DNA from: Demequina subtropica
Lineage (GTDB): Bacteria > Actinomycetota > Actinomycetes > Actinomycetales > Demequinaceae
Length of the DNA: 64,000 nt
Assembly: GCF_000971235.1 (NCBI RefSeq)
Contig: NZ_BBMB01000011.1
Coordinates: 66,547 to 130,546 of the forward strand
Direction of reading: 5' to 3'
Made by a program: the position numbers and the translations under genes. The notes below the pieces were generated by a model that had not been told where the DNA came from, did no database searches, and saw nothing but the letters and a program-made list of their open reading frames with translations. Shown piece after piece: positions 10,295-59,819 of this stretch (the first letter of the stretch is position 1; each line of letters opens with the position of its first letter).

Positions 10295-10331
10295 GCCGCG
10301 CATCGTCCCCGGACACCGGACACGACGAAGA

Positions 10332-29436: not shown

Positions 29437-30553
29437 CGCCCACCCGGCCCTTCGTCACCGGGATCGTGCGGCCCTCGAGCACCGCAGGGACGTCCTCGGC
29501 GACCGCCGCCGTGATCAGCACCTGGCTGGCCCGCTCGAGCCGAGCGGCCAGCGCCGCGCGGCGCCCGGCGTCGAGCTCGGCGAAGACGTCGTCGAGGATG
29601 AGCACGGGCTCGCCGTCGTCGCCCGCATCGGGTCCGGTGTCCGATGTCAGCATGTCGTAGGTGCCGATGCGCAGCGCGAGAGCGCACGACCACGACTCCC
29701 CGTGGCTCGCGTAGCCCTTCGCGGGCATGCCCGCGAGACGGATGTCCAGATCGTCCCGTTGCGGTCCCGCAAGCGTGACGCCACGCTCGAGCTCCTTGGG
29801 CCGGACCTCGCGAAGCCTTTCCAACAGCAGCGCCGACAAGGCCGATGCCTCTTCCGGCATCTCCTCTGCCAGGGACGATGCGTATGCGATCGCGCAGTCG
29901 CCGCCGTCCGGGGCGACGTCCTGGTAGGCCGCCCACACGAAGGGCGCGAGCGTCCTCACCGCACGCAGGCGCGCGGCAACGATGCGGCCGCCCAGCTCCG
30001 CGAGCTTCTCGTCCCAGATGTCGAGCATGGTGAGATCTCCACGCGCGTGGCGCGAGGTCTTGAGCATCGAGGTGCGCTGGCGGAGCACCCGTTCATAGTC
30101 GCTCAGGTCGCCGGCCAAGGCCGGCTGCAGCGCGACGCAGAGCTCGTCCATGAACGCGCGACGTCCCGCCGGATCGCCCTTGACGAGCGCAAGGTCCTCC
30201 GGCGCGAACAGCACGGTGCGCAGGATGCCCAGCAGATCGCGAGGTCGCGCCGCGCCCCTGTTGAGGCGCGCCGTGTTCGCGCGACCCGCGTTGAGGGTGA
30301 CCTCGAGCCCGAGCGAGCGCCCCGCCTTCTCCACCTTGGCGCGCACGATCGCCCGCTCGGCGCCGAAACGGATGAGCGGAGCATCCGACGCGACGCGGTG
30401 CGAGCCGAGAACCGACAGGTACCTGACCGCCTCGACGAGGTTGGTCTTGCCCTGCCCGTTGCGTCCCACGAAGGTGGTGACTCCCGGACCCAGCTCGACG
30501 TCTGCCTGCGTGTACGAGCGGAAGTCGGCGAGCTGGACGTGGGTGACGCGCAC
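29429..30553 (-). CDS. recF: DNA replication/repair protein RecF
   Basis: 374 aa, GTG at 30553 sharing one base with the dnaN stop (TAGTG). It starts with LADFRSYTQADVEL, Walker A GRNGQGKTNLVEA, a signature region GPQRDDLDI and Walker B VLILDDVFAELD. It loads RecA at gaps opened during replication. Coupled to dnaN upstream and DUF721 downstream. Confidence 0.97.
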   Translation of the reverse strand: MRVTHVQLADFRSYTQADVELGPGVTTFVGRNGQGKTNLVEAVRYLSVLGSHRVASDAPLIRFGAERAIVRAKVEKAGRSLGLEVTLNAGRANTARLNRGAARPRDLLGILRTVLFAPEDLALVKGDPAGRRAFMDELCVALQPALAGDLSDYERVLRQRTSMLKTSRHARGDLTMLDIWDEKLAELGGRIVAARLRAVRTLAPFVWAAYQDVAPDGGDCAIAYASSLAEEMPEEASALSALLLERLREVRPKELERGVTLAGPQRDDLDIRLAGMPAKGYASHGESWSCALALRIGTYDMLTSDTGPDAGDDGEPVLILDDVFAELDAGRRAALAARLERASQVLITAAVAEDVPAVLEGRTIPVTKGRVGDE

Positions 30554-31680
30554 TACGAGGCGATACGGATGGGCACCAGGAGGTAGCGGAAGTCCGCCGA
30601 GACCTCGCCGCCCGGCTCCGACAGGCCCACGAACTCGACCGGCTTGGTCTCCTGCGTGAAGCCCAGCTGCACGAAGTCCGTGCCGAGCGCCGACAACCCG
30701 TCCAGCAGGTACTGGGGGTTGAAGGCGACGGTGATCGGGTCGCCGTGGAGGTGGGCGGTGAGCGCCTCCGATGCCTGCGCATCGTCGCTCTGGCCGGCGT
30801 CGAGCGTGACCTCGCCCTCGGCGAAGGCCAGTCGCACCGACGAGTTGCGCTCGGCGACGAGCGCGACGCGACGCGTCGCGTCGATGAGGTCCTGCGTCCG
30901 CACGGTCGCCGTGATGGGGCTCGACTCGGGGAACAGCCGGCGCACCTGGGGGTAGTCGCCGTCCATGAGGAGCGAGGTGGTGACCAGCCCGCCCGCCTCG
31001 AAGCCGATGAGGTCCATGCCCTGGCCGGAGCTGAGCGCGACGGTGACTTCGCCCGCTCCCAGGGACTTCGCGGTGTCGCCGAGCGTCTTCGCTCGCACCA
31101 GCGCGACGGCGCTGATGTCGGTCTTCGACGGCGTCCACTCGAGCTCTCGCAGCGCGAGACGGTAGCGGTCGGTCGCGAGCAGGGAGATGTGCGAGCCCTC
31201 GATCTCGACGCGGACGCCGGTGAGGATCGGGAGGGTCTCGTCACGCGACGCCGCGGAGGTGACCTGGGCGACGGCCTGCTGCAGGGTCGCACCGTCGATG
31301 GTGCCGGAGTGCTCGGGGAGCTCGGGCAGCGACGGGTACTGGTCGACCGGCATCGTGGCGAGCGTGAAACGAGAGGCGCCGCAGGTCACGGATACCTTGG
31401 TGCCCTCGAGCGACAGCTGCACCGGCTTGTGCGGAAGCGCGTTCGCGATCTCACGGAGGAGCCGGCCGCTCACGAGCACCTCACCGGGCTGCTCGACATC
31501 GGCGGGGAACTCGCCGCGCGCCGAGACCTCGTAGTCGAAGCTGGCGAGACGGACCAGGCCCTCCGCATCGGCGGTGATCCTGACGCCCGCAAGAACGGGA
31601 ACGGGCGGACGCGCCGGGACGGCGCGCGACGTCCATGCGACGGCGTCTGCCAGAACGTCGCGCTCGACGGTGAACTTCAT
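30553..31680 (-). CDS. dnaN: DNA polymerase III beta clamp
   Basis: 375 aa from ATG 31680 (MKFTVERD) with AGAGGAG upstream. Three clamp domains can be followed, with VPVLAGVRI in domain I and FNPQYLLDGL, then YLLVPIR near the end. It is the processivity clamp and the first gene of dnaN-recF-DUF721-APH. Its leader runs into the origin region. Confidence 0.98.
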   Translation of the reverse strand: MKFTVERDVLADAVAWTSRAVPARPPVPVLAGVRITADAEGLVRLASFDYEVSARGEFPADVEQPGEVLVSGRLLREIANALPHKPVQLSLEGTKVSVTCGASRFTLATMPVDQYPSLPELPEHSGTIDGATLQQAVAQVTSAASRDETLPILTGVRVEIEGSHISLLATDRYRLALRELEWTPSKTDISAVALVRAKTLGDTAKSLGAGEVTVALSSGQGMDLIGFEAGGLVTTSLLMDGDYPQVRRLFPESSPITATVRTQDLIDATRRVALVAERNSSVRLAFAEGEVTLDAGQSDDAQASEALTAHLHGDPITVAFNPQYLLDGLSALGTDFVQLGFTQETKPVEFVGLSEPGGEVSADFRYLLVPIRIAS

Positions 31681-31787
31681 GCTTGCTCCTCTGATTCTGA
31701 CCACAGACTATGCCACGGGTCCGACGATGCAGGTAGGCGTTTCGAGGCGTCGCCGGGCCCCGAGCGCGCGGGCCCTGATGAAGGCCA

Positions 31788-32030
31788 TGTGGACAATCAC
31801 AAGAAGGTGGTCTCATGGTCGTATTAGGCACCGTGGATTCTGTGGAGTTCGTGCGTCTGCGCTGGAAATCACAAGAATCTGGTTGTGAGCGGCCTGAGGG
31901 CGAATACCGCCGGAGCTGGGGATGACCCGGGGAAGGGCGTCGAGGCGGCCTCAGAATTCTTGTGATTCTTCACAGGTCGTCCCCTGTGGACTCAGCACGC
32001 CATCCACGGGTCTCCACAGAGTTTTCCACA
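31788..32030. promoter_or_regulatory. DnaA-box cluster
   Basis: TGTGGACAA (31788-31796) is a perfect reverse-strand TTGTCCACA box, and TTTTCCACA (32022-32030) is an 8/9 match to TTATCCACA. Weaker boxes: TGTGGAGTT (31841), TGTGGACTC (31985), CATCCACGG (32001), TCTCCACAG (32011). This is the best candidate for DnaA assembly. Confidence 0.7.
31795..31967. repeat. 11-mer AATCACAAGAA, three copies
   Basis: Exact copies at 31795-31805 and 31867-31877, and the exact reverse complement at 31957-31967. All lie in the A/T-rich part of oriC; the first overlaps the perfect DnaA box by two bases. It does not match the DnaA box. Confidence 0.75.
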
Positions 32031-32192
32031 TTTGTGAGGGAAACGGCCCTGTGCGGGCCCTCAAGGCGCCTCCAGGGCGCGTGGGACCGGCCTCACCCGG
32101 GATCATCGCCCCTCGTCTGCTCGGCCGGCGACGCAATCCGGGCGACGGTTCGCACCGTCCCCCACCTCTCCCGAGGCGGGCTCGTGCGGGAG

Positions 32193-32827
32193 AATCGTTC
32201 CTGACGAACGATTTCGGGCAGTTCAGAGCCCGTGGGCGTGTCGGGGCGCCGGAAGGCCTCGAATCGTTCGTCAGGACAGCTCAGGACGGCCGCAGTCGGG
32301 AGTCGCGTTCGCGGGGCCTGCCCGACGCGGATGCCGGCCGCTCCCGTCCTCGCGCGTCCTGACGAACGATTCGACCCCTCGGCGCGAGGAGGAGGCGCAT
32401 CGGTCGCGTGGAGCCCCGAATCGTTGTCCAGGACGGCTTCTGACGGAACGGCCGCGGGCAAGGGCTGCGGGAGGCGCCGCCCCAGCTGGATGCGCAGCCC
32501 GAGAATCCTGGCGCCCGCTGAAGGCCCGGGTGAGGACGCCGTTCAGCCACGAGGACGCGCGCCACGGGAGAACGGCGCCTGACGAACGATTCCGGCCTCT
32601 CCAGGGCAAGGGGGGCGTACGACGGCCGGGGAAGGGCATATTCGTGTCTCAGGCGCCGTCGAGACGGACGGACGACGAGCCGGGCCGTGGGCACGGCCGG
32701 CACCGCTGGAGCCTCCGCGGGCGGCCGCGCCCACGGGAGCGGCTCCTGACGAAGGAATCGGGGGTGTTCTGCGCTGAGAGCGTGCCCGGGCGCGCCGAGG
32801 CCCCCGAATCGTTCGTCAGGAACGATC
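32193..32827. repeat. Iteron array in oriC (AATCGTTCGTCAGGA family)
   Basis: About eight copies in 635 bp. Complete palindromes AATCGTTC-N5-GAACGATT/C stand at both ends (32193-32213 and 32807-32827). Strong half-copies GAATCGTTCGTCAGGA or its complement are at 32261-32276, 32357-32372 and 32578-32592. Degenerate copies are at 32418-32433, about 32438-32450 and 32744-32760. Orientation varies. The arms read GTTC...GAAC, the reverse of a LexA box. The array lies directly behind the dnaA stop codon. Confidence 0.8.
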
Positions 32828-32846
32828 GAGGGCGGGGCAGGGGTGG

Positions 32847-34253
32847 CTACGCGCGCGACTGCTTGATGCGCGCGTGGATCTCGTTCACCTGGTTGTACAT
32901 CTGCCGGCGCTGCGCGATCTGGTCCTCGACCTTCTTGACCGCGTACATGACCGTCGTGTGGTCCTTGCCGCCGAAGTGCTCGCCGATCTTCGGAAGGGAG
33001 AGGTCGGTGAGCTGACGGCAGAGGTACATGGCGATCTGGCGCGCCGTCACGAACACACGCGACCGGCTGGTGCCCGTGAGCTCCTCGAGCGAGATGCCGA
33101 AGTACTCGGCGGTCTTGCCGATGATCGCTGCGGCCGTGATCTCCGAGTCGTCGTCGGAGATGAGGTCCTTGAGGACCACCTGGGCGAGAGACAGGTCCAC
33201 CGGCTGGCGGTTGAGCGCCGCGAAGGCCGTGACACGGATGAGCGCGCCCTCGAGCTCGCGGATGTTGCTCGTGATGTTCGACGCGATGTACTCCAGCACG
33301 TCCGACGGCGCCTGGACCGCATCGGCCGCGGCCTTCTTGCGAAGGATCGCGACGCGGGTCTCGAGGTCCGGCGGCTGGACGTCTGTCATGAGGCCCCACT
33401 CGAAGCGGGTCCGCATGCGCTCCTCGATGCCGTCGAGGTAGCGAGGGCTCACATCCGAGGTGATGACCACATGCTTGCCCGCGTTGTGCAGCGCGTTGAA
33501 GGTGTGGAAGAACTCCTCGAGCGTCTGCTCCTTGCCCTGAAGGAACTGGATGTCGTCGATGAGGAGGACGTCCACCTCACGGTAGGTGCGCTTGAAGCTC
33601 AGGGAACGATCGTCACGGATCGAGTTGATGAAGTCGTTGGTGAACTCCTCCGAGTTCACGTACCGCACCCGCGTCTGGGGCTTGAGATGGCGCGTGTAGT
33701 GCCCGATCGCGTGGAGAAGGTGCGTCTTGCCCAGGCCCGAGCCGCCGTAGATGAACAGCGGGTTGTACGTCTTGCCAGGGGATTCGGCGACCGCGAGGGC
33801 GGCGGCGTGGGCGAATCGGTTGGAGGGGCCGATGACGAAGGTGTCGAAGGTGTACCGGGGGTTGAGATGCGGGTCCTCGACCACGAGCGGCGCCGGCGGC
33901 TCGGGCCGGCGGACCGGAGGCCGGGGCGCCTCGTCGCCGGTGGCGTCGCCGACGGCGGGCTCGGGCGGCGTGACCGACGAGTCGACCGTGACCGCGATGC
34001 GGACGTCGCGGCCGAGCACCTCGCTCAACGCCTCCGTGACCGGGCCGCGCAGCGTGGTCTCCACGTAGTTCTTGGTGAAGTCCTCGGCGACGGCGAGGAA
34101 CACGTTGTCCTCGACCACTGCCAGGGGCTTCACGAGTCGAAGGAATGATCGCGCCTGGCCGCCGAGCGAACCGTCCTCCGAGAGGAAGTCGAGTGCTCCG
34201 CGCCAGATGGCGTCGATTGATTCAGGGGCAGGCTCTGCCGCCACTGGCGTCAC
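32847..34253 (-). CDS. dnaA: Chromosomal replication initiator DnaA
   Basis: 468 aa from GTG 34253; a TTG at 34259 would add two residues, and neither has a clear ribosome site. Domain I about 1-80 (IWRGALDFLSED), a short Pro/Glu-rich domain II, then the AAA+ domain from about 130: Walker A GGSGLGKTHLLHA, Walker B LLIDDIQFLQGKE, sensor motifs and box VII region. Domain IV has the DnaA signature FGGKDHTTVMYA for DnaA-box binding. Transcribed towards oriC as usual. The linker domain is shorter than in many actinobacteria. Confidence 0.97.
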   Translation of the reverse strand: MTPVAAEPAPESIDAIWRGALDFLSEDGSLGGQARSFLRLVKPLAVVEDNVFLAVAEDFTKNYVETTLRGPVTEALSEVLGRDVRIAVTVDSSVTPPEPAVGDATGDEAPRPPVRRPEPPAPLVVEDPHLNPRYTFDTFVIGPSNRFAHAAALAVAESPGKTYNPLFIYGGSGLGKTHLLHAIGHYTRHLKPQTRVRYVNSEEFTNDFINSIRDDRSLSFKRTYREVDVLLIDDIQFLQGKEQTLEEFFHTFNALHNAGKHVVITSDVSPRYLDGIEERMRTRFEWGLMTDVQPPDLETRVAILRKKAAADAVQAPSDVLEYIASNITSNIRELEGALIRVTAFAALNRQPVDLSLAQVVLKDLISDDDSEITAAAIIGKTAEYFGISLEELTGTSRSRVFVTARQIAMYLCRQLTDLSLPKIGEHFGGKDHTTVMYAVKKVEDQIAQRRQMYNQVNEIHARIKQSRA

Positions 34254-36766: not shown

Positions 36767-36782
36767 CGTTTCACGTGAAACA
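36767..36782. promoter_or_regulatory. parS site 1
   Basis: CGTTTCACGTGAAACA, 15 of 16 bases matching the parS consensus, just after the jag stop and before rsmG. Bound by ParB. Confidence 0.9.
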
Positions 36783-37652: not shown

Positions 37653-37668
37653 TGTTTCACGTGAAACG
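37653..37668. promoter_or_regulatory. parS site 2
   Basis: TGTTTCACGTGAAACG, 15 of 16 bases matching consensus, in the leader of parA, so ParB binding could also affect parAB expression. Confidence 0.92.
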
Positions 37669-37715: not shown

Positions 37716-38708
37716 GTGTCCAGCGACAAGACACATGACTCGATCGTGTCGGACGACTCTCGGCGTGGCGCCACCACCGCTGTTTCACGTGAAACACGTG
37801 ACCCGTTCGATCGCCTCGCTGAGGACGCCGGCAGCCCGCTGGCCGCGGAGATGATGGCCATGGAGCGCCAGCGTCGCGCACTCGAGTCGGCGGACTTCCC
37901 CAAGCCGCCGAGCACGCGGGTCATCGCAGTGTCCAATCAGAAGGGCGGGGTCGGCAAGACCACCACCTCGGTCAACGTCGCAGCGGCCCTCGCCAAGCGT
38001 GGCGCCAACGTGCTCGTGATCGATGCGGATCCGCAGGGCAACGCCTCGACGGCGCTGGGCGTGGATCACCGATCCGGCACGCCGTCGATCTACGACGTCC
38101 TTCTGGACGAGACCCCGATGGCCAAGGTCGCCCAGCGGTGCCCGGACATCGACACCTTGTGGTGCGTGCCCGCGACGATCGACCTTGCCGGCGCGGACAT
38201 CGAGCTCGTGTCCGTGGTGCGTCGAGAGTTCCGGCTCCACGACGCTCTCCGGGATCTGCTTGAAGGTCCGGGGAAGGACCTCGACTACGTCTTCATCGAC
38301 TGTCCGCCGAGCCTGGGCCTGCTCACGCTCAACGCGATGGTCGTGGCCACCGAGGTCCTGATCCCGATCCAGTGCGAGTATTACGCGCTCGAGGGGCTCA
38401 CCCAGCTCATGAAGACCGTCGAGATGGTGCGCAAGCACCTCAATCAGGGCATCCACGTCTCGACGATCGTGCTGACGATGTACGACGGCCGCACCAACCT
38501 CGCGCGCGAGGTGGCGCACGAGGTGCGCTCGCACTTCCCGTCGCAGACGCTCGAGCAGACGGTGCCGCGGTCGGTCCGGGTCTCCGAGGCCCCGGGCTTC
38601 GCGCAGACGGTCATCACGCACGACCCCCATTCCTCAGGCGCGGTCGCCTACACGGCCATCGCTCGTGACATCGCGGTGCGAGGCGCCGCAGGATCGGAGA
38701 ACAGGTGA
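37716..38708 (+). CDS. parA: Chromosome-partitioning ATPase ParA
   Basis: 330 aa from GTG 37716 with GAGGAAGGGA upstream. A ~65-residue N-terminal extension typical of actinobacterial ParA (Soj) precedes the deviant Walker [15 protein letters not shown]; Walker A' is [10 protein letters not shown] and Walker B region [13 protein letters not shown]. It drives origin segregation by binding DNA in the ATP form. A perfect parS site lies inside the 5' end of the gene. Overlaps parB by 4 bases. Confidence 0.96.
37781..37796. promoter_or_regulatory. parS site 3 (perfect)
   Basis: TGTTTCACGTGAAACA, a perfect 16/16 parS inside the parA coding region (codons about 22-27, reading CAVSRET-like ...AVSRET). 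The three sites span about 1 kb, enough to nucleate a ParB complex. Confidence 0.96.
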
Positions 38709-46676: not shown

Positions 46677-48674
46677 TCAGCCTCGCTCCCCGGTTCCGGC
46701 GTGATCGGTGCGCGTGTCCTTGCGGCCGCGACGCACCGTGCGGATCACGCCCATGACGAGCATCGCGATGAGCCCGACCGTGAACACCGCGGTCACGGCC
46801 GTGCCCCAATCCGCGCGCACGCGCACGGACATGCTCACGGGCGACGCGATGCTGCGGCCGTCGGTGTTGCGCAGCACCGTCCGCGCCTGCACGTTCGCGG
46901 AGGACACCGCGGAGACCTCGACCGGCACGGTGGTGCTCGAGCGAGGCGGCACGGTCACCGTCGGCGAGTCGCGGATCTGGAGGTTGGCCGAGAAGGACGT
47001 CATGTCGACCACCACGGTGGCCGCCACGTCCAGGTCGTTCACCACCGTGACGGGGAGCGCGCCCTGGTCCGCGATGAAGTTGATATCGGAGCCCGCCGCG
47101 ACGTGGAGGGCTCCGAGCGTCGCGTCGACGGTGGTCTGCGCATCGGTGAGCAGCAGCTCGCGGGCGAGCTCGTCACCGCGCACCGTGCGCGCGAGCGGGG
47201 CCAGCAGCGCCGCGCCGCCCGGCACGGTGATGTCCTCCGGGTCCTCCGCGACCACACCCAGGTCCGCGAGCCGTTCGAGGCGCGTCGCGATCCCGGTGAT
47301 CGCCGCCTTGCCCAGGTCGTCCTCCTCGCCGAGCAGCTCCTCGAGGCTCGCGCCACGGTCCGCCGGCGCGTCAAGCAGGTCCCCGACGCTCACCGCGGAT
47401 ACGAAGGACGCGCTGAGGAGCGCCGAGAGCGTGGTGGTCGCGCTCGCGGTCGTCGGGCTCCAGTCGTCGCCCGTCCAGACCAGCACGGGGCCGTCGTGCT
47501 GGGCCGCGGTGAGCGCCGCGGCCGCGGTCGCCATGCCTGCGGCGCCCGGGGTCGAGGACGCATCGGCCATCGCCAGCTCCGAGAGGAGGGGGTCCGGCTG
47601 GAGCAGGGTCATCCGCCACTCGCCGGCGCCCACGAGGCGCGTGGCCGACACGGGCCGGGTGTCCGGCGCATCGTCCGCATCCGGCGTGACCAGCAGCGTG
47701 CCCGCGCCGTTCTCGACCGCGTAGCGGACCGTGGCCTTGTCGAGGCTGCCGACGATGCCGAGCCAGGGGAGCCCCGCGAGCTCGCCGTCGCCCGCACCGG
47801 AGCTGAGACCGAGGGAGTAGTCGAGGACCTCGGTGCTCTCGGCATGGGCGAGCGACACGAGGTCGGGGTCCTGGGCGGGCAGGCGCAGCGTCGAGCCCTC
47901 GTCGATGTCCGCGGAGCCGCCGTCGAGCGCGGACCACGCGTTGCCGTCGACCGCGAGCGTCACGCCGTCGAGGCCCGCCGCCTCCGCGACCGCGTCCACG
48001 CGATCGGTGATGCCGGTCGCGGTCGCGAGCGTCGCGAGTGAGAGCGCAGGGATGTCGGCATCGTCCCAGGTCACCGCGCCGTTCATGAGCGTGGTCGTCT
48101 CGCCGTCGGCCCGGAGCACCACGCGGATCCCGTGCACGCCCCACGTGTCCGCCTCGAAGGGGAGGCGGTCGTCGACCGACGTGACGGTGACGGTGGAGGA
48201 CGTGCCCGCGGCCAGCCGGGTGAAGGTGTCGGGTTGCTCGGGCTCCGCGGCGCCGTCGGGCCCCTGGGTCGCGTCGGGGGTCGGCACCGGGCTGGGCGTC
48301 GGCTCGGTCATGGTCACGCCGACGTCGGTGCCGCCGACGCTCACCAGGCGTGCGTCGCCGCCGTCGAGGAACGCGGCCAGCGCCTTGCGGTTCTCGAGCG
48401 GCTTGCGCGTGATCTGGAGGATCACGCGCGCATCGTCCACCGCGGTGGTGGAGAGGTTGGAGACCGCGACGGTCACGTTCATCGCGTCGCCGGGCTCCAC
48501 CACGGGAGCCGGGGCGGACACCACGTCCGCGTCGAGCTGCGGATCCTCGCTGTCGGTGGGGGCGGCCGCGGCCGGCAGGCCGATCGCGAGCGTCGCCAGC
48601 ACCCCGGCGCCGGCAAGCGCCCGCCGCGCCGCGCGCGGGGCGCGCGGGGCGCCGCGCATCGTCCCCCGGATCAC
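46677..48674 (-). CDS. DUF6049 family secreted/membrane-anchored protein
   Basis: 665 aa from GTG 48674, overlapping the NUDIX stop (GTGA); ATG 48659 is a possible alternative. A signal peptide with Arg-rich start and LAGAGVLATLAIGLPAAAA, several beta-sandwich stretches (MNVTVAVSNLSTTAVDDARV, VTVPPRSSTTVPVEVSAVSS) and a C-terminal helix (TAVTAVFTVGLIAMLVMGVI) with a basic tail. The bulk is therefore outside the membrane. Conserved placement between NUDIX and murJ suggests an envelope role. Function unproven. Confidence 0.85.
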   Translation of the reverse strand: MIRGTMRGAPRAPRAARRALAGAGVLATLAIGLPAAAAPTDSEDPQLDADVVSAPAPVVEPGDAMNVTVAVSNLSTTAVDDARVILQITRKPLENRKALAAFLDGGDARLVSVGGTDVGVTMTEPTPSPVPTPDATQGPDGAAEPEQPDTFTRLAAGTSSTVTVTSVDDRLPFEADTWGVHGIRVVLRADGETTTLMNGAVTWDDADIPALSLATLATATGITDRVDAVAEAAGLDGVTLAVDGNAWSALDGGSADIDEGSTLRLPAQDPDLVSLAHAESTEVLDYSLGLSSGAGDGELAGLPWLGIVGSLDKATVRYAVENGAGTLLVTPDADDAPDTRPVSATRLVGAGEWRMTLLQPDPLLSELAMADASSTPGAAGMATAAAALTAAQHDGPVLVWTGDDWSPTTASATTTLSALLSASFVSAVSVGDLLDAPADRGASLEELLGEEDDLGKAAITGIATRLERLADLGVVAEDPEDITVPGGAALLAPLARTVRGDELARELLLTDAQTTVDATLGALHVAAGSDINFIADQGALPVTVVNDLDVAATVVVDMTSFSANLQIRDSPTVTVPPRSSTTVPVEVSAVSSANVQARTVLRNTDGRSIASPVSMSVRVRADWGTAVTAVFTVGLIAMLVMGVIRTVRRGRKDTRTDHAGTGERG

Positions 48675-53691: not shown

Positions 53692-53725
53692 GGACGATGC
53701 CGGGGCCGGGCGGGCGCATCGTCCC
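53691..53725. terminator. Terminator built from an inverted pair of the GCATCGTCC element
   Basis: GGGACGATGC (53691-53700) pairs with GCATCGTCCC (53716-53725) around a 15-base GC-rich loop. It immediately follows the Lrp stop and faces the convergent MFS gene. Confidence 0.75.
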
Positions 53726-59682: not shown

Positions 59683-59819
59683 CCGCGAAACCGGCTCGCC
59701 GGGTCACGATGCGGCGTCGCCGCGCGTTGGGGGAGCATCCGGGGCGCCGCCCCAGCCGGCGGGACGCGCGCATCGTCCCGGATCGGGGCGTGCGCCCCCT
59801 CAGTCCTTAAGGTGGTCAC

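Follow-up and report, generated by a model that had tools for sequence, protein, structure and literature searches.

Between dnaA and dnaN, the genome of Demequina subtropica carries an ordered array of inverted site pairs that directly adjoins the core replication origin (oriC) with its DnaA boxes, on the side that faces dnaA. The usual picture of a bacterial origin is one of DnaA boxes together with a few sites for shared global regulators; what we describe here is a large, ordered site array that a conserved origin gained at a single point within one genus. We place about even confidence in reading it as a lineage-specific, once-added set of duplex DNA sites for a sequence-specific protein, which would build an ordered complex on them and most likely modulate the initiation of replication.

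Architecture of the array and its locus

Within the window, that is the whole stretch of 64 kb that was analysed, eight matches to the array motif at ≤3 mismatches were found between 32193 and 32821, compared with 1.06 expected over the entire window (Table 1). A weight matrix built over the relatives added a degenerate copy at 32640 and one half of a palindrome at 32813. A preliminary description of this DNA had reported about eight repeat copies in 32193-32827, and these proved to be real and more regular than claimed. Eight non-overlapping sites of the AATCGTTCGTCAGGA type alternate strictly in orientation and form four inverted pairs, with start-to-start spacings within the pairs of 63, 62, 63 and 63 bp. 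The same description had rightly placed palindromes at both ends of the array (32193-32213, perfect, and 32807-32827, with one mismatch). These palindromes represent versions of an outer flank that varies, and not all relatives have them at both ends. It had also suspected longer duplicated units from the GCGCCCACGGGAG neighbourhood; this neighbourhood belongs to a longer conserved outer flank, which extends the unit to around 105-110 bp.

The dnaN side of the gap is occupied by the core oriC. In most members of the genus a DnaA box is found 346-350 bp before dnaN, and the usual dnaA-dnaN gap across the genus measures around 380-530 bp. Because this box position and gap size are widespread in the genus, we consider the core oriC of around 380 bp to be ancestral. 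Beyond dnaA, the window contains rpmH/rnpA/yidC-type genes on the plus strand, as well as three canonical parS sites near parA/parB-like genes, some 4-5 kb from the array. A sub-threshold match to the Rfam family AsdA (antisense RNA of dnaA mRNA) was detected antisense to dnaA at window positions 33667-33749 on the plus strand (34.7 bits against a gathering threshold of 52; E = 2e-4), which may merely mirror the sequence conservation of dnaA.

Table 1. Features of the dnaA-dnaN region and its surroundings (window coordinates).
Feature	Position	Strand	Remarks
dnaN	30553..31704	-	likely start 31680; translation MKFTVERD..., conserved in relatives
dnaA-dnaN gap	31681-32846		1166 bp
Core oriC	31681..32060	.	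~380 bp, dnaN side of gap; retained in nearly all of the genus
DnaA box TTGTCCACA	31788..31796	-	exact match
DnaA box TTTTCCACA	32022..32030	+	1 mismatch; position conserved in genus
Overlapping half of end palindrome AATCGTTC-N5-GAACGATT	32193..32207	+	
Site 8, pair 4	32199..32213	-	exact AATCGTTCGTCAGGA
Site 7, pair 4	32262..32276	+	exact; 63 bp from site 8
Site 6, pair 3	32357..32371	-	exact
Site 5, pair 3	32419..32433	+	variant AATCGTTGTCCAGGA, 22.0 bits; 62 bp
Site 4, pair 2	32577..32591	-	1 mismatch
Site 3, pair 2	32640..32654	+	degenerate ATTCGTGTCTCAGGC, 13.9 bits; at expected position; 63 bp
Site 2, pair 1	32744..32758	-	2 mismatches
Site 1, pair 1	32807..32821	+	exact; 63 bp; 26 bp after dnaA stop codon
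Overlapping half of second end palindrome	32813..32827	-	weight matrix
dnaA	32847..34259	-	Pfam PF00308 and PF08299
parS	36767-36782		canonical
parS	37653-37668		canonical
parS	37781-37796		canonical

Conservation of motif, spacing and polarity

The nine genomes in which the array was detected contain 67 sites, while shuffled array regions average 0.12. Orientation alternates in 53 of the 58 neighbouring sites, and every array comprises three to five pairs in a row. When neighbours in -/+ orientation are read in the dnaA-to-dnaN direction, 28 of 31 lie at a distance of 62-64 bp, corresponding to six helical turns, and the remaining three at 85, 85 and 97 bp. Between one pair and the next, gap lengths concentrate at 94-95 and 103-105 bp and extend up to 167 bp. 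Helical phasing between successive pairs reached an R of around 0.8 on raw counts and, when relatedness was allowed for by using unique or clustered gap lengths, p values of 0.03-0.14, so that this phasing is suggestive only.

Each arm has a core of 15 bp, flanked on both sides by weaker conserved positions from about -8 to +25, including purines at -8/-7, T-C at +20/+21 and, at 0, a G. In left-type sites these are followed by G-A at +24/+25, and the TCAGGA half recurs at +10; right-type sites have T at +23 instead. Since its two arms differ, the unit has polarity. Within a site, the conserved positions return about every 10 bp.

Pairwise identities within the array clade amounted to 63-87% at site positions, 50-63% between sites and 78-89% in the core oriC, and spacers in relatives have drifted to about 50-75%. 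For the fourfold degenerate sites of dnaA the corresponding identity is 59-79% and, because the identity of the spacers resembles theirs, the spacers evolve much like neutral sequence. As judged from these alignments, the motif and its spacing are held by selection while the spacers drift.

Distribution and history of the array

In the 3.08-Mb genome of D. subtropica, the motif is found nowhere outside the array at ≤1 mismatch, and there is one copy at two mismatches, which lies within a predicted coding sequence. Candidate second copies elsewhere in this genome (contig C12) were rejected, being near matches within predicted coding sequence that look like chance. Comparison of the dnaA-dnaN regions of relatives retrieved the array in eight further species of the genus, so that it is not absent from close relatives; in all, nine species among 47 genomes of the family possess it (G000, which is D. 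subtropica, G019, G002, G265, G016, G022, G030, G024 and G025). A model of the whole unit, 108 positions in length, produced strong matches solely in the dnaA-dnaN gaps of these nine genomes, and its best match outside those gaps in the 47 family genomes had an E value of 5.9e-4. No further array, just scattered copies, was found in 396 genomes sampled from the order. Similarity to the array was not significant in plasmids and phages, and viral contigs yielded 23 single exact 15-mer matches, never more than one copy per contig, which we took as chance. A full-text literature search for the letters of the motif returned unrelated papers only.

In a tree of dnaA and dnaN, the nine array species form one clade. 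The nearest species outside it (G026, G028 and G021) are all without the array, and these three sisters, like the remaining genus, have kept the core oriC of around 380 bp alone. Based on this ancestral core and the distribution by clade, the array is a later addition gained once. It amounts to around 500-950 bp of extra sequence between dnaA and the core oriC, acquired in the ancestor of the nine-species clade and kept in all nine descendants examined. Because most members of the genus manage well with no such array, it is dispensable for initiation as such. The species that possess it and their array-free sisters lend themselves to comparison.

Some other gaps of the genus have features of their own. 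Those of G004 (L034) and G035 (L035) measure 986 and 952 bp, over double the normal length; they were considered as further arrays and rejected, for they hold ORF-like sequence, apparently a small gene (by eye, GNAT-like in G004 and TPR-like in G035), and no array. The gap of the array-free sister G021 (L017) contains a single inverted pair, built on another motif (GATTCCGTGCGCAGTGTCC) at a spacing of 76-84 bp, as well as a 15-bp direct repeat (GCGCAGTGTCCGGGA / GCGCAGTGTCCAGGA), both features lying 16-130 after the dnaA stop; the inverted pair is possibly an analogue of the array. In G026 (L174), dnaA falls into two disjoint matching segments that differ in frame, the first of which contains a stop; this finding at the N-terminus suggests a frameshift or an assembly error.

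Duplex DNA sites or RNA hairpins

The symmetry of the units could in principle reflect RNA hairpins, that is, a row of terminators or a set of REP/BIME-like palindromes. Single units fold well, several windows have strongly negative folding z-scores, and the position of the first unit straight after dnaA would suit a terminator. However, the arms pair like shuffled partners, both within genomes (0.798 for the core, compared with 0.803 for arms shuffled inside a genome) and across units, where paired cells in the 27-unit alignment amounted to 63.9% against 63.6% after shuffling and two-sided changes were not in excess. RNAalifold predicted no pair on the same alignment. A terminator-like T-run was missing from the array region, and no tRNA or Rfam family was found within the array. 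Scattering of the repeats around the genome as terminators, which the preliminary description had named as a point against its own reading, was looked for genome-wide and did not occur, nor would REP/BIME-like palindromes be expected to stand out, as these units do, solely in the dnaA-dnaN gap. We consider the hairpin explanation very unlikely. Because the arms do not covary, the sites are better regarded as duplex DNA sites than as RNA hairpins or terminators, and the best explanation for their symmetry is that the duplex is read by two protein copies.

Comparison with known origin sites

The repeats had been described from the start as distinct from DnaA boxes, parS and LexA-type sites, and our matching tests in the array were negative for all three. 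No DnaA box at ≤1 mismatch was found in the array, the boxes being confined to the core oriC. It could be argued that the array sites are unusual DnaA sites of low affinity, as the variant TTGTCCAGGA has seven bases in common with the DnaA box TTGTCCACA, but the consensus TTCGTCAGG departs from this box at several positions and has no CACA end, and domain IV, with which DnaA binds DNA, hardly differs between species that possess the array and species that do not; of all the readings considered here, this is the least probable. Sites resembling parS (TGTTTCACGTGAAACA-like) are absent from the array and present elsewhere in the window, and the arms, read from 32193-32213 as GTTC-N5-GAAC, differ from the GAAC-N4-GTTC of the LexA (SOS) operator.

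Regulators that bind oriC include AdpA, MtrA, CtrA and Spo0A (PMC4285127). Using the MtrA and AdpA consensus sequences given in the same source (PMC4285127), we found no match to the MtrA box (GTCACAGCG-like) at ≤1 mismatch in 31681-32846 and no match to the AdpA box TGGCSNGWWY in the array. In the dnaA-dnaN origin of Mycobacterium tuberculosis, MtrA boxes are present as several GTCACAgcg direct repeats (PMC4285127). The array sites are similar in that they contain a GTCA core along with a partial direct repeat of 10 bp but, unlike MtrA boxes, they form inverted pairs 63 bp apart, have a long and different consensus and lack further genomic targets. AdpA binds the 5' part of oriC in Streptomyces coelicolor, where it limits initiation (PMC3411110), and thus provides an actinobacterial example of a non-DnaA regulator at this part of the origin, as the putative binder of the array would be. 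It is, however, a pleiotropic regulator, whereas the array sites are restricted to oriC, numerous, arranged in pairs and set at regular distances. For CtrA the consensus is TTAA-N7-TTAA (PMC4285127). Its sites at the Caulobacter origin resemble the array in being multiple sites for a non-DnaA regulator at a chromosomal origin. CtrA nevertheless has many genomic targets, in contrast to the array sites.

Plasmid-like iteron control, which the preliminary description had also put forward, found no support. Iteron origins (RK2, F and R6K) and the Vibrio cholerae ori2/RctB system, in which spacing and helical phase matter (PMC10797057), share with the array the presence of repeated sites beside an origin. 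Iterons, however, are close direct repeats with an initiator encoded nearby, whereas the array supplements an ordinary DnaA origin with strictly alternating inverted pairs, whose two sites are separated by about six helical turns; instead of direct repeats at short regular spacing, its sites lie 62-64 bp apart within pairs and 94-167 bp between pairs. A Rep_3 initiator (PF01051) was not found in any of the nine array genomes, although positive controls were detected. The Replicase family (PF03090) likewise gave no match, but its positive control failed too and the result is uninformative. The array might still be what is left of an iteron replicon or mobile element that once integrated, with initiator control of the plasmid type, as its iteron-like look near the origin and its lineage-specific gain would allow, yet with its pairs inverted and far apart, no Rep_3 initiator and no similar array in plasmids and phages, we regard this as highly improbable.

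A candidate target of an origin-binding protein

Site conservation, spacing and location all fit a candidate array of origin-binding-protein (oriBP) sites. The preliminary description had likewise suggested the target of a sequence-specific origin-binding protein, and this is the best reading of an array that is origin-confined and common to close relatives. In the mechanism we propose, one putative sequence-specific protein would bind the double-stranded sites of the array. With the arms of a pair facing each other at 62-63 bp, the protein on both arms would meet on the same face of the helix, and adjacent pairs would join into a single ordered complex. By bending, looping or covering the part of the origin next to dnaA, this complex would most likely modulate DnaA access or unwinding at the core oriC.

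A protein bound to these sites could also serve other purposes. The array lies between dnaA and dnaN in the direction of transcription, and inverted pairs are usual in repressor operators, so that it could be a large operator for dnaN transcription or dnaA read-through and not an element of replication initiation. We think this unlikely, given that the sites are found around 520-1150 bp upstream of dnaN, past the entire core oriC, that 8-10 sites are many for a single promoter, that no sigma-70-like promoter was found in the array region and that a second target promoter was not seen in the genome. An equally unlikely role is that of a centromere-like or anchoring site, which would position or segregate the origin through a partner other than ParB. 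A chromosomal anchor would be expected to look like this, with repeated sites near the origin that are unique in the genome; however, a segregation system exists already, with canonical parS sites at 36767, 37653 and 37781, and nothing ties the array to a segregation system.

By analogy, and considering the location of the array, we regard initiation control as its most likely role; the precedents are AdpA, MtrA and CtrA, among which we gave most weight to AdpA, with its position 5' in the Streptomyces oriC. As the array sites are restricted to oriC, the putative binding protein is possibly dedicated to the origin. Rather more tentatively, we suggest that the clade may have evolved a dedicated origin-binding protein, whose sole chromosomal target would be the polar inverted pairs, six helical turns apart, beside oriC, and which would provide a recently acquired layer of replication control over an unchanged DnaA origin. 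Being unique in the genome, the array sites represent a clean bait for such a putative protein.

A dispersed 12-mer in array genomes and their sisters

Each of the nine array genomes also contains between 145 and 471 copies of the 12-mer GCGCATCGTCCC (172 in D. subtropica). It is present in the array-free sisters as well, with 156 copies in G028, 242 in G021 and 66 in G026; the reversed control gave 0-2 copies, and other members of the genus that were tested had around 1-35. Copies on the plus strand of the window are located at 10298-10309, 48654-48665, 53714-53725 and 59768-59779, three of the four between predicted genes, and a few copies lie within the oriC arrays of relatives. The 12-mer and the array motif both contain ATCGTYC, yet they are separate. 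From its distribution, GCGCATCGTCCC looks like a dispersed short element, often intergenic and sometimes in close inverted pairs, which may be an uptake-like, REP-like or regulator site.
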